Part shown: one piece after another, positions 37,225-41,154 of the stretch
How the letters are laid out: every line of letters starts with the position of its first letter
How positions within the stretch are numbered: the stretch's first letter is position 1
Notes under the pieces: model-generated
What the model was told of the DNA's origin: nothing
Seen by the model: only the letters and a program-made list of their open reading frames with translations
Databases searched by the model: none
Origin: Ferrimicrobium acidiphilum DSM 19497
Lineage (GTDB): Bacteria; Actinomycetota; Acidimicrobiia; Acidimicrobiales; Acidimicrobiaceae
Direction: 5' to 3'
Assembly (NCBI RefSeq): GCF_000949255.1
Contig: NZ_JXUW01000025.1
Span: forward strand, 1-48,684
DNA length: 48,684 bases
Program-made: the position numbers and the translations under genes

Positions 37225-38139
37225 ATGCAAACGTCACGAACCGACCAACCGGCATCCAACTCCGGAGGCTCAGTCAAAGAACCCACAGGCGCTGAGCTGC
37301 CGACCGCCACAGCAGCGGCGACTGCACCAGATCCGGAGTCGACGCTCGAAGTTCCACTCGGCTCACTCGCAATCGAGGGCCCGGATGCAATTCGCTTCAT
37401 TCAAGGACAGGTCACGAACGACCTCAGCCAATTGACAGACAAAAGGCAGCTCCTCGCCGCGATCTGTACACCCGATGGCAAGCTTGTCACCATAGTGAGT
37501 ATACAGCAGGTTTCCGCTGACCACCTGCGTCTTATCACCTATTGTGAGCATCTAACCCTACTGAGTGAGCGCTTGCATCGCTTTCGGATACGAGTCAAGG
37601 CGGAGATCCACCCCGAAGAGGTCAGTTGGTTGGTAGATGCGGATCCTCGATCCAATCCACTCTGGCCTTTAGATTCCCGCTTGCTTCCAACCACTGACTT
37701 GGGCGGTCCAGCCACCCTTGAACACTTCACCCGATCACGACTGGCGCGACTGGCAACTCACCTTCCAGTTGATGCGCCGGCCGACCTCTTGGTCGCTGGC
37801 GTACCGGCATTGGTAGCTAACGGGGTGAGCTTCACTAAGGGCTGCTATGTGGGTCAAGAGCTGGTCGCTCGGACCGATTCACGCAATGCCAAACCGCCAA
37901 TCTCGCTATTTGTCTGTAGGTTCACACCGGACTCGTGCGAGCCCTTCACCAGCATCGCGAGTCTGCCTTTGAACTTGAGCGCAGAGTCTGATAGCAGCGC
38001 AGGCGAGGTCCGTGCTCTCCTGGTCGAGGATGCGAGCGTCGTCATCAGTGGCTGGGTCAAGCGCAGGTTTGCGAACCACGTCGGACTTCTAATCGACGGG
38101 CTTCCTGAGTTTGCTATCCCAGTCGCACTCGCCCCGTAA
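37225..38139 (+). CDS. ygfZ: YgfZ/GcvT-family folate-binding protein
   Basis: Tetrahydrofolate-dependent protein linked with repair or assembly of iron-sulfur enzymes in characterised bacteria. The 304-residue product has the YgfZ signature KGCYVGQELVART, the N-terminal folate-domain stretch FIQGQVTNDLSQL, and ICTPDGKLVTIV. A 35-residue low-complexity N-terminus (Ala, Thr, Pro) precedes the fold and may not be needed; no strong internal start was found. It lacks the glycine-cleavage context of GcvT. It diverges from the GGDEF-EAL unit and converges with trpE, their 3' ends overlapping by 26 bp. Confidence 0.85.
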   Translation: MQTSRTDQPASNSGGSVKEPTGAELPTATAAATAPDPESTLEVPLGSLAIEGPDAIRFIQGQVTNDLSQLTDKRQLLAAICTPDGKLVTIVSIQQVSADHLRLITYCEHLTLLSERLHRFRIRVKAEIHPEEVSWLVDADPRSNPLWPLDSRLLPTTDLGGPATLEHFTRSRLARLATHLPVDAPADLLVAGVPALVANGVSFTKGCYVGQELVARTDSRNAKPPISLFVCRFTPDSCEPFTSIASLPLNLSAESDSSAGEVRALLVEDASVVISGWVKRRFANHVGLLIDGLPEFAIPVALAP

Positions 38140-39616
38140 GACCTCTGGCGACCATCACCGCCCTGGCTACCGCGGCCGCCTTCGAAACGGTCTCGGCCGC
38201 CTCATTCGAGCCAATCGAATCGACCACGATTCCAGCACCTACCTGCAGGTGACAGACTCCCGCCGGATCGACGACGACGGTGCGTATAGCGATAGCAAAA
38301 TCGAGGCTGCCGTGAGCGCTGAAATATCCGACCACACCTCCATAGACGCCACGCCGTGTGCTCTCAAGCTCGTCAATGATCTGCATAGCCCTGACCTTGG
38401 GCGCACCACTGAGGGTTCCAGCAGGCAATGTAGCCTTCAACAGCGAGACGTGACTTACCCCAACACTTAAGCGCCCTACCACCTCGCTAGTCAAGTGGAT
38501 CACCTTTGCAAAAAGTTCTGGAATCATAAGGTTAGCCACCTCTACGGAGCCAAACTCAGCAACTTTACCGACATCATTTCGCGCTAGATCAACCAACATT
38601 ATGTGCTCAGCACGCTCCTTCGGGTCCTCCTTGAGCTCCTCGATGTAGCGCGCATCTTCGTCATCGCTCGCCCCTCTGGGACGGGTACCAGCGATGGGGC
38701 GAACCATCACCGATCCGTTGCGATCAGCGGTGACCAGTGCTTCGGGTGAACTCCCAACCACAGTAACCTCGCGTGCCTGGAGTAGGTACATATAAGGACT
38801 TGGGTTGGTAATACGTAATGCCCGATAGAGCGAGAGGGAATCAGCAAGCAGTGGGAAGTCGAAACGACGTGAGAGCACAACTTGGAAGATATCACCTGCA
38901 AGGATATACTCCTTGGCACGTTCAACGATCGCCTCATAGGAGACGGTTGAGGCGTCGTCGAGCAACGCACGTTCGGCTCCTTGGGGGGTGGAGATCAAGT
39001 TTGGTCCCAAGTCCGAGCGAATCTGGCAAAAATCATCCGCCAGCTGCTTTAAATCTGCAGTAGCTTCGTCATACTGGTCACGCCTATCGCGCCCCGGATC
39101 AAGAAGGACGTTGACCACCAGGGTCACCGTCTGGGACCAGTGGTCAAAGACTGCAAGTTCACCGACGAGGTTAAGGAGTACATCTGGCAGCTCGAGATCA
39201 TCGACAACCGTCTCGCCAACCGTGGGTTCGATCTCACGAACCACGTCATAACCAAGATAACCGAGTAGTCCACCCGCAAAAGGAATCGGATCCAGCGGCT
39301 CCATCGAGAGAGCCGCGGTCAGCCGTTCAAGGTAGTCAAAGATCCCCTCCCCGTTCACTGGCTGCACCGGCAGATGGCCAAGGGTCTCGATCGATCCATG
39401 ACGCACCACTACTCGGCCCAACGGAGAGCGACCAACGAAAGAGAAGCGCGACCATCGTCCTACCTGATCGACTGACTCAAAGATAAAACCGTCACCGTCA
39501 GCCCCAACGAGGGCATCAAAGGCAGCAACCGGCGTAATCGTATCGACCAACAACGTCTGTGTTAGTGCCACCAGCGAGTGCTTCTCCGCCGATCGCTGGA
39601 ACTCGTCGAAGCTCAT
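38114..39616 (-). CDS. trpE: Anthranilate synthase component I
   Basis: Converts chorismate to anthranilate with ammonia from TrpG. The 500-residue protein has the chorismate-binding core: VRPIAGTRPRGASDDED, DLARNDVGKV, PAGTLSGAPKVRAM, RRGVYGGVVGY and GAGIVVDS. The N-terminal domain has FIFESVDQVGRWSRFSFVG, corresponding to the tryptophan-feedback region (usual LLES), so feedback control is likely though the motif is altered. TrpE is preferred over PabB because it follows hisI with a 4-bp ATGA overlap, the hisI-trpE order known in other actinobacteria. No TrpG or TrpD gene is in the window; the other trp genes are at 25183-28568. Confidence 0.92.
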   Translation of the reverse strand: MSFDEFQRSAEKHSLVALTQTLLVDTITPVAAFDALVGADGDGFIFESVDQVGRWSRFSFVGRSPLGRVVVRHGSIETLGHLPVQPVNGEGIFDYLERLTAALSMEPLDPIPFAGGLLGYLGYDVVREIEPTVGETVVDDLELPDVLLNLVGELAVFDHWSQTVTLVVNVLLDPGRDRRDQYDEATADLKQLADDFCQIRSDLGPNLISTPQGAERALLDDASTVSYEAIVERAKEYILAGDIFQVVLSRRFDFPLLADSLSLYRALRITNPSPYMYLLQAREVTVVGSSPEALVTADRNGSVMVRPIAGTRPRGASDDEDARYIEELKEDPKERAEHIMLVDLARNDVGKVAEFGSVEVANLMIPELFAKVIHLTSEVVGRLSVGVSHVSLLKATLPAGTLSGAPKVRAMQIIDELESTRRGVYGGVVGYFSAHGSLDFAIAIRTVVVDPAGVCHLQVGAGIVVDSIGSNEAAETVSKAAAVARAVMVARGLTGRVRLG

Positions 39617-39963
39617 TTATCCAACTCGCTAGCGGCCAGCCCTCTGGTGAAACAGCTGTAGCTCCCCGTGTGGCAGGCACCGGACCCATGTTGTCGAACC
39701 CGAAGGAGCAGAGTATCGGCATCACAATCGACGTCGATGCTCACAACCTCCTGGGTGTTACCAGAGGTTGCACCCTTGTGCCAATACTCCTTACGCGAAC
39801 GTGAGTAGAACCAAGTCTCTCCATCATGCAGCATCCGGTCAAGTGCCTCCCGGTCAACATAGGCAAGCATCAGTACCTGTCCTTGCTCATCAACCACGAT
39901 CGCCGGCATCAGACCTCGATCATCGAAAACAAGGCTCTCCATAAGCTTGTCGTCATAATTCAT
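39613..39963 (-). CDS. hisI: Phosphoribosyl-AMP cyclohydrolase
   Basis: Opens the adenine ring of PR-AMP in histidine synthesis; zinc and magnesium enzyme. The 116-residue product has MLAYVDREAL, TWFYSRSRKEYWHKGATSGN, VDCDADTLL (metal-binding Asp) and the Cys pair in GACHTGSYSCF. It is the single-domain form, so the HisE pyrophosphohydrolase must be elsewhere. ATG 39963 has GAGGAG 6 nt upstream. Stop overlaps the trpE start by 4 bp. Confidence 0.96.
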   Translation of the reverse strand: MNYDDKLMESLVFDDRGLMPAIVVDEQGQVLMLAYVDREALDRMLHDGETWFYSRSRKEYWHKGATSGNTQEVVSIDVDCDADTLLLRVRQHGSGACHTGSYSCFTRGLAASELDK

Positions 39964-40041: not shown

Positions 40042-40371
40042 TTAGAGGTAAAGTCCAGTTCCGGAGTCGATCCGATCGGAGGCGACAGCGTGTATATCAC
40101 GTTCGCGAAGGATGAGGTACGTCTCCGCCTGGATCTCCACCTCAAACCTATCTTCAGGCGAAAAGAGCACCAGATCACCCTGTTTGATCGTCCTGACAGC
40201 TGGCCCGATAGCAACGACCTCCGTCCAGGTAAGGCGCTTAGCCACCTGAGCGGTAGCCGGTATCAGTATCCCCGACCGCGCCGTACGTTCACCTTCGACG
40301 GAGGGGACCTGAACCAACAATCGATCGGCGAGCATGGTGATAGCTTGCTTTTTTGGTCCTAGTTCACTCAT
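40042..40371 (-). CDS. GroES-like (Cpn10) protein inside the his operon
   Basis: A 109-residue chaperonin-10 family protein. It has the mobile-loop region ERTARSGILIP, a barrel VVAIGPAV and QGDLVLFSPEDRFEVEI, and the C-terminal YLILRERDIHAV, all matching GroES. Between VVAIGPAVR and QGDLVLF only a few residues remain, where GroES normally has a longer roof hairpin, so the dome top seems to be missing. No groEL is nearby and the gene lies between hisF (12 bp upstream) and hisI (78 bp downstream), clearly co-transcribed. Whether it is the cell's main co-chaperonin, or a specialised paralogue, cannot be told here. Start ATG 40371 with an A/G-rich region upstream. Confidence 0.85.
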   Translation of the reverse strand: MSELGPKKQAITMLADRLLVQVPSVEGERTARSGILIPATAQVAKRLTWTEVVAIGPAVRTIKQGDLVLFSPEDRFEVEIQAETYLILRERDIHAVASDRIDSGTGLYL

Positions 40372-40383
40372 TGCACTCTCTCT

Positions 40384-41154
40384 TCATAGATCTAATTCAT
40401 CCTTCACTCGAACCTCGACTCCAGCATCGCGAAGGTAAACCTTCACCTGATCAATAGTGAAGGTTCCAAAATGGAATACGCTCGCAGCAAGTAAACCTTG
40501 GACCTTGAGCCTGGCTCCAGCCAAAAAATCCTCAAGGCTCCCTACCCCACCAGAGGCGATGACTGGCACATCGGTCTCGGCGAGTACTTTGGCATAGAGT
40601 GCTTGATCATAACCTCCGAGGTGGCCATCCCGATCCATCGAGGTCACCAAGAGTTCGCCAGCACCTTCGGCCTGCACACGCTCGAGCCAAGCCGACAGCT
40701 CGATCCCGGTCGGACGGGTTCCACCATGAGTAACCACTTCAAAGCCGACCTCATTTCGGCGTACGTCTATAGCCACAACCACACATTGGTCCCCGAAGAC
40801 GTCAGCAATCTCCCTAATAAGTGTCGGATTGCGAACCGCCGCAGAATTCACAGCAACCTTGTCGGCGCCCATCCTCAAGAGAGCGCTCGCCACCGAGAGT
40901 GAGTCGACCCCGCCACCGACGGTAAAGGGTATGAAGACGCGCTCGGCTACTCGAGCGACAAGATCGACGATGGTTGTGCGATCCGATCGAGTAGCAGCAA
41001 TATCTAAGAAGACGAGCTCGTCAGCGCCAGCCTCACTGTAACCACTCCCCATCGCCACTGGATCTCCGGCATCTCTCAGCTCGACGAAGGAGACTCCCTT
41101 GACCACTCTGCCATCGGCAACATCTAGGCACGGGATAATTCTTACCTGTTGCAC
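40384..41154 (-). CDS. hisF: Imidazole glycerol phosphate synthase subunit HisF
   Basis: Cyclase half of IGP synthase; uses ammonia from HisH to make IGP and AICAR from PRFAR. The 256-residue barrel has catalytic Asp in RIIPCLDVADGRVVKG and Asp in VVAIDVRRN, plus PFTVGGGVDS, TSMDRDGHLGGYD and VIASGGVGSLEDF. GTG 41154 lies within the end of hisA (13-bp overlap), with GAGGGG 8 nt upstream. Confidence 0.97.
   Translation of the reverse strand: MQQVRIIPCLDVADGRVVKGVSFVELRDAGDPVAMGSGYSEAGADELVFLDIAATRSDRTTIVDLVARVAERVFIPFTVGGGVDSLSVASALLRMGADKVAVNSAAVRNPTLIREIADVFGDQCVVVAIDVRRNEVGFEVVTHGGTRPTGIELSAWLERVQAEGAGELLVTSMDRDGHLGGYDQALYAKVLAETDVPVIASGGVGSLEDFLAGARLKVQGLLAASVFHFGTFTIDQVKVYLRDAGVEVRVKDELDL

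Follow-up and report, generated by a model that had tools for sequence, protein, structure and literature searches.

The partners of the bacterial 20S proteasome that are named in two reviews are Mpa/ARC, Bpa/PafE and Cpa (PMC12288473, PMC8223512), the review from 2025 naming Mpa, PafE and Cpa as activators (PMC12288473). Mpa/ARC (TIGR03689) is a hexameric AAA ATPase, and Bpa/PafE (PF10759) consists of four-helix protomers assembled into a dodecamer, which uses seven of its twelve tails and sits askew (PMC11953334). It has been described that a C-terminal GQYL docks both Mpa/ARC and Bpa in pockets of the heptameric alpha-ring (PMC8223512, PMC11953334), for which the residues R26 and K52 have been named (PMC11953334), and that the Q of this motif is not essential (PMC12288473). 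Bpa is confined to genomes with a 20S proteasome, and its genes are located at a distance from those of the proteasome (PMC4254994); for Propionibacterium acnes, a 20S proteasome has been described in the absence of both ARC and Bpa (PMC4254994). Among the co-chaperonins, the hole in the GroES roof measures about 5 Å (PMC5653362), and gp31 of phage T4, a lid for GroEL, is a GroES-type heptamer that has no roof, an absence said to give a wider opening (PMC6318259). Furthermore, the co-chaperonin relatives CPN11/20/23 of the Chlamydomonas chloroplast have been located on ClpP, a ring protease, at its axial face (PMC8889267).

The window analyzed here, i.e. the whole stretch of 48,684 nucleotides of contig NZ_JXUW01000025.1 of Ferrimicrobium acidiphilum DSM 19497 (assembly GCF_000949255.1), encodes a small protein with a Pfam Cpn10 match (64.1 bits, cut-off 21.1), designated Cpn10-L in the following (Table 1). 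The end of hisF lies 12 bases before this gene and the start of hisI 78 bases after it, followed by trpE. Among the neighboring genes, hisF, hisI, hisH and hisD score above their NCBIfam cut-offs, and for trpE, hisA, hisB and hisC their own families are the best NCBIfam matches, at scores below the curated cut-offs. The open reading frame, its Pfam family and the families of its neighbors confirm the description given in the first-pass annotation of this DNA, namely a Cpn10 protein located between hisF and hisI, and its statement that groEL is not nearby also holds, as the two Cpn60 matches of the genome are located on contigs C3 and C4. The genome search for other groES and groEL copies that it proposed returned one other Cpn10 match, an ordinary groES adjoining groEL on contig C3, together with an orphan second groEL (G000:C4:148353-149867) on a contig that carries no Cpn10 match. 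That Cpn10-L is the only and ordinary groES of this organism is ruled out by this second, ordinary groES as well as by the roof-length alignment presented below. GroEL/GroES genes have been reported in two copies in most Acidimicrobiia by a study of acidophiles, the available excerpt of which makes no link to the proteasome (PMC10490939). Matches above 100 bits were obtained in 55 of the 60 relatives searched (own genome counted), indicating that Cpn10-L is more than a chance occurrence. In six relatives of the same genus, sequence identity to the window counterparts amounts to 93-98% for Cpn10-L, 75-93% for hisF and 72-88% for hisI, and at the nearest locus that bears the genus name (L063, a Ferrimicrobium sp. 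assembly) the identity is 96%.

Table 1. Coordinates, within the window, of the Cpn10-L gene, its segments and its neighbors.
Feature	Position	Strand	Remarks
Cpn10-L (roofless Cpn10 paralogue)	40042..40371	(-)	109 aa, ATG start; Pfam Cpn10 match
C-terminal GLYL, G-x-Y-[L/I] proteasome-docking type	40045..40056	(-)	tail sequence
C-terminal extension, residues 97-109	40045..40083	(-)	variable linker, then conserved end
Site of missing roof hairpin, residues 56-65	40177..40206	(-)	8 residues between G56 and G65
Mobile-loop segment, residues 25-49	40225..40299	(-)	conserved G-[I/L]-x-I-P, ends at W49
hisF, upstream neighbor (context only)	40384..41154	(-)	TIGR00735, 309.5 bits, cut-off 294.55
hisI, downstream neighbor (context only)	39613..39963	(-)	NF000768, 147.4 bits, cut-off 126
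trpE, after hisI downstream (context only)	38114..39616	(-)	NF010086, 493 bits, best match, below curated cut-off of 693

The structural features of Cpn10-L were assessed by aligning 182 distinct orthologues, including that of the window, with 21 ordinary GroES proteins, one from the same genome and 20 from the same phylum. The roof span comprises 8 residues in all 182 orthologues versus 16-18 in all 21 canonical GroES, and is thus 8-10 residues shorter; this comparison recovered no roof and bears out the earlier proposal that the segment between the barrel strands is much shorter than in GroES. In GroES the motif residues of the mobile loop contact GroEL. This loop is kept in Cpn10-L, as had likewise been proposed, with G34 and P38 being invariant and both I37 and W49 conserved at 99% across the orthologues, while its length exceeds that of canonical GroES by 2-3 residues. 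The C-terminal motifs, on the other hand, are not simply kept, since the protein carries an extra tail of approximately 13 residues ending in GLYL, which the first-pass annotation had overlooked. Following H94 there are 15-20 residues in Cpn10-L versus 4-5 in 20 of the 21 canonical GroES (14 in the remaining one). Across the 182 orthologues the linker (residues 98-104) is variable, T105 is conserved at 90%, G106 and Y108 are invariant and L109 reaches 99%.

In addition, the C-termini of orthologues from 208 loci were surveyed, corresponding to 178 distinct C-terminal 60-mers, 177 of which end in G-x-Y-[L/I]: GLYL in 158 cases, GQYL in 12, GMYL in 5, and GLYI and GPYL in one each. GQYL is found outright in all nine loci of family f46 and in three of family f23. 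The lone exception (L271, genome G518) has a normal core and a frame that overruns the usual end with no GxYL tail, which points to disruption of the gene or to an error in the sequence. The G-x-Y-[L/I] end is absent from all 21 ordinary GroES inspected.

With respect to family membership, Cpn10 is the only Pfam domain that scores above its cut-off in Cpn10-L, which leaves no ATPase domain above that cut-off, and NCBIfam searches up to an E-value of 1 returned GroES models only; membership of the Bpa (PF10759) or Mpa (pup_AAA) families was thus not found with Pfam or NCBIfam. Cpn10-L matches 14 NCBIfam GroES models, none of them above its cut-off (the best at 44.8 bits versus 96 and 136), and the orthologues of three relatives likewise fall below the curated GroES cut-offs. 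The AlphaFold2 monomer is of moderate quality (best mean pLDDT 70.9, with the five models ranging down to 35.5), the barrel being mostly above 70 and values below 50 being confined to residues 25-43 of the mobile loop and 101-109 at the end of the tail; the C-terminal extension is predicted to be disordered. The top Foldseek matches of this monomer are GroES/Cpn10 chains, and T4 gp31 (1g31) is found at rank 32, with 16% identity to the Cpn10-L model. Taken together, Cpn10-L resembles GroES/Cpn10 (PF00166) in its fold, its barrel strands and a mobile loop with a GILIP-type contact motif, and differs from it in the lack of the roof hairpin, the longer loop, the GxYL tail, a location away from groEL and scores below the curated cut-offs.

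The end of Cpn10-L is of the same kind as those of the known proteasome partners encoded by these organisms. In the genome to which the window belongs, the Pup-proteasome locus is arranged in the order Mpa, Dop, Pup, PrcB, PrcA and PafA, with Bpa encoded elsewhere; Dop and PafA, each of them a Pup_ligase match, were told apart by position. Mpa of this genome ends in ATGQYL and Bpa in APGNYL, and among 26 Bpa tails that were readable from 30 loci, 25 end in G-x-Y-[L/I] and one in NSYL. Judging from these Mpa and Bpa tails, the motif seems to operate as G-x-Y-[L/I] in these organisms, and the Cpn10-L end conforms to it. On the side of the receptor, PrcA has R at position 26 and K at position 52 in all six proteins inspected (those of the window genome and of the five carriers of family f103 discussed below), positions which we take, by number, to be equivalent to those of the mycobacterial protein. 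At one Pseudonocardiales locus (L084:2822-3373), an open reading frame located about 2.6 kb from Cpn10-L is a Bpa gene (PF10759).

The genomic context of Cpn10-L was scanned for nine genes (hisA, hisB, hisC, hisD, hisF, hisH, hisI, trpE and a ygfZ/gcvT-like gene) by tblastn with the window's own proteins, on the same strand and within 1 kb, a procedure from which divergent his genes could escape. In the order to which the window belongs, a his gene or trpE adjoins Cpn10-L in 84 of 85 loci, and hisF and hisI flank it on two sides in 53 of the 85; 22 of these loci (L061-L082) were assigned to the order by similarity only, and some genomes are counted twice. Outside this order, where the protein retains its distinctive features, 117 of 126 loci lack any of the nine genes, and the remaining nine carry a hisC-like aminotransferase gene downstream. 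In these nine (L126, L127, L129, L131-L134, L136 and L137), which belong to one such lineage, the hisC-like gene follows Cpn10-L at a distance of 27-161 bases. The suggestion of the first-pass annotation was therefore right in part: a second, roofless Cpn10 does occupy a real and old operon position, while a role dedicated to the histidine enzymes is rejected, as an adjoining his gene is for the most part a feature of the own order. What tracks Cpn10-L across genomes is the 20S proteasome, the his genes having been scored at adjoining positions only.

Clustering of the neighborhoods of 123 loci outside the order returned mostly lineage-local neighbors and one large cluster, which was judged to consist of reading frames antisense to the Cpn10-L gene itself. 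By eye, a DUF3618-like reading frame was seen upstream of Cpn10-L in nine loci, and a frame for a ClpB/ClpC-like ATPase upstream on the same strand in three (L055, L152 and L153). A phage origin of the gene was also considered and rejected. Two phage records match, and the one inspected, MT835744.1 (L295, filed as 'Bacteriophage sp.'), resembles, by eye, an actinobacterial chromosome and has a Bcp-like peroxiredoxin frame beside Cpn10-L. Among the best 15 of 31 plasmid matches, the full tail is present only in an 11.85-Mb Nonomuraea record, NZ_LT559118.1 (Nonomuraea gerenzanensis), which is filed as a plasmid, has matches for PrcA, Bpa and Cpn10-L, and is evidently a chromosome.

Co-occurrence with the proteasome was examined in three samples, which overlap, using PF00227 (Proteasome) matches as a proxy for 20S subunits. 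In a phylum sample of 396 genomes, in which orthologues were called at over 70 bits, PF00227 matches are present in 109 of the 110 orthologue carriers versus 67 of the 286 non-carriers (Fisher test, 4.5e-49, kinship ignored); such values overstate independence, as most carriers share deep ancestry. The second sample, 198 genomes from a single order that partly overlaps with the former, has PF00227 matches in all 79 carriers, matches without an orthologue in 33 genomes and neither in 86. Here, 100,000 shuffles within families gave an expectation of 3.9 carriers without matches, with none observed (P 0.0004), the informative families being only three, f47, f69 and f103. A PF00227 match alone is no proof of a 20S proteasome, because HslV-type proteins of E. 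coli and other controls match as well; two or more matches are present in 108 of the 109 phylum-sample carriers (G160 has one) and in all 112 positives of the order sample, and the 20S subunits were individually identified only in the window genome (G000) and in the genomes of f103. The one carrier without a match, G065, possesses an orthologue with its tail and an Mpa with GQYL in an assembly that is 97% complete in 250 contigs; no recognizable Dop-like frame follows Mpa in this genome, and a gap in the assembly could not be demonstrated. Cpn10-L is dispensable, given that many PF00227-positive genomes do without it (67 of 176 in the phylum sample and 33 of 112 in the order sample), and these probably include mycobacteria, which have been reported to have a single cpn10 gene (PMC10952152). 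Bpa was not found in the seven Cpn10-L carriers G065, G068, G080, G491, G588, G649 and G650, nor in the genomes of L102-L104.

Family f103 allows the gene to be followed among close relatives. Among all 42 genomes returned, the orthologue is present in exactly the five that have PF00227 matches and in none of the 37 that do not, and each of the five carriers has both PrcA and PrcB. In genus g319 of this family, three genomes possess both the 20S proteasome and the orthologue, and a fourth, G620 (L336), possesses neither. Since G620 keeps Mpa (which lacks GQYL), Dop, Pup and PafA and is devoid of both PrcA and PrcB as well as of Cpn10-L, the gene for the latter goes with the 20S core in this genus rather than with pupylation. 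In four of the five carriers (G649, G650, G588 and G491; L332-L335) Mpa lacks a C-terminal GxYL, no Bpa was found, and Cpn10-L ends in GLYL; in the fifth, G652, Mpa ends in GGQYL, there is a Bpa match and Cpn10-L ends in TGLYL. The PF00227 matches of these four genomes are weaker than those of G652.

The GxYL end, the near-exclusive occurrence with the 20S proteasome and the same ends on Mpa and Bpa support the notion that Cpn10-L acts at the proteasome. In the model proposed here, Cpn10-L is likely to form a co-chaperonin ring without a roof, which uses its tails to dock on the alpha-ring of the 20S proteasome and probably serves as a cap that needs no ATP. Seven subunits would form a GroES-like heptamer, whose flexible tails would each occupy one of the seven pockets of the alpha-ring; the two symmetries would match, which is not the case for hexameric Mpa or dodecameric Bpa. 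Insertion of the tails would open the gate of the 20S particle without ATP, and the missing roof would leave a pore or channel for unfolded chains to enter through the ring, which may receive such chains from GroEL or compete with GroEL. The individual parts of this model are not equally secure: docking on the 20S proteasome is highly probable from the conserved end, opening of the gate is somewhat more probable than its opposite, and contact with GroEL is doubtful. Conservation of the GroEL-binding mobile loop makes a partnership of the ring with GroEL conceivable and suggests that GroEL, or another binder of this loop, may still be a partner of Cpn10-L. In an extended form of the model, which we consider unlikely, Cpn10-L would be a bridge whose loops hold GroEL and whose seven GxYL tails hold the alpha-ring of the 20S proteasome, in such a way that chains that failed to fold would move straight from the cage into the proteasome by way of the roofless pore and without ATP.

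Compared with the systems introduced above, Cpn10-L shares with Bpa/PafE a G-x-Y-[L/I] end after a variable linker, a distribution tied to 20S genomes and a gene apart from the proteasome locus, and differs from it in having a GroES barrel in place of four-helix protomers and in being present in seven genomes where Bpa was not found. With Mpa/ARC it has in common the type of end, GQYL in that protein, whereas it contains no ATPase domain and is missing from G620, in which Mpa occurs without the 20S proteasome. The absence of a roof is shared with T4 gp31, which differs in being a phage-encoded lid for GroEL. With regard to the Chlamydomonas proteins, the PDB chain closest in sequence to Cpn10-L is a Cpn20 chain of the ClpP entry 7ekq, but that system belongs to a chloroplast, involves ClpP and not 20S, forms a hetero-complex and is reported to inhibit (PMC8889267).

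Several observations count against the proposed cap, namely the carrier G065 with no PF00227 match, the Bpa that ends in NSYL, L271 without GxYL, a mobile loop for which a cap acting on the proteasome alone would have no use, the inhibitory nature reported for the chloroplast precedent on ClpP, and the PF00227-positive genomes that have no orthologue (67/176 and 33/112), and other explanations have therefore to be weighed. The evidence from the tail and from co-occurrence would also fit with a chaperone of 20S assembly, in which the same tails bind alpha-subunits or half-proteasomes and not the mature particle, and assembly factors of other proteasomes have been described to act in an HbYX-dependent manner (PMC4254994). 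Yet the same PF00227-positive genomes manage without Cpn10-L, and the conserved mobile loop and the lost roof would go unexplained, so that this explanation appears improbable. It is also quite improbable that the ring is an inhibitory or storage plug, which would bind the end of the 20S particle and block other caps. For such a plug speak the position of CPN11/20/23 on the axial face of ClpP, for which the title of a cited reference names inhibition (PMC8889267), and the match to a chain of such an entry, 7ekq; however, loss of the roof would produce a more open ring and a poor plug, and the four f103 genomes with an Mpa devoid of the motif and no Bpa found would offer it no known GxYL cap to obstruct.

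Little credence is given to an alternative lid for GroEL of the gp31 kind, providing a larger or open chamber for special substrates while the tail serves some other purpose. The retained G34, I37 and P38 of the mobile loop, the two groEL genes of the genome and a roof that is missing as in T4 gp31 (PMC6318259) would agree with it, but it predicts neither a tail like those of Mpa and Bpa nor a nearly exclusive presence with the 20S proteasome. As for a protein dedicated to the folding or assembly of the his enzymes, as the first-pass annotation had in mind, the his genes and trpE that adjoin or flank Cpn10-L in its own order, and the few hisC-like genes elsewhere, speak in its favor; the 117 of 126 loci outside the order that lack all nine genes and the fact that Cpn10-L tracks the 20S proteasome instead reduce its probability to a negligible level. 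The reading as a roofless ring that probably caps the proteasome is the one retained here.

A GroES-type partner of the proteasome was not found described in the literature, as judged from titles and abstract openings among the matches listed, and the main text of the paper on ProEnd, a database of HbYX proteins, contains no mention of GroES or chaperonin (PMC11475706). The search that led to Bpa began from the genome of Mycobacterium tuberculosis (PMC4254994), and since mycobacteria are reported to have one cpn10, Cpn10-L may have been missed for this reason. The fold and the mode of docking are both known, and it is their combination and the phylum-wide family that appear to be new. From its sequence, Cpn10-L should behave as a GxYL-docking partner of the proteasome outside the Mpa and Bpa families. 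If true, a GroES-fold cap would represent a further, unrelated partner of the bacterial proteasome and, to our knowledge, would for the first time connect a chaperonin lid with the 20S proteasome. Two questions also become testable, namely what serves the 20S particle in lineages such as the four genomes where Mpa lacks GQYL and Bpa was not found, and whether failed folding substrates may be handed over directly to the proteasome.
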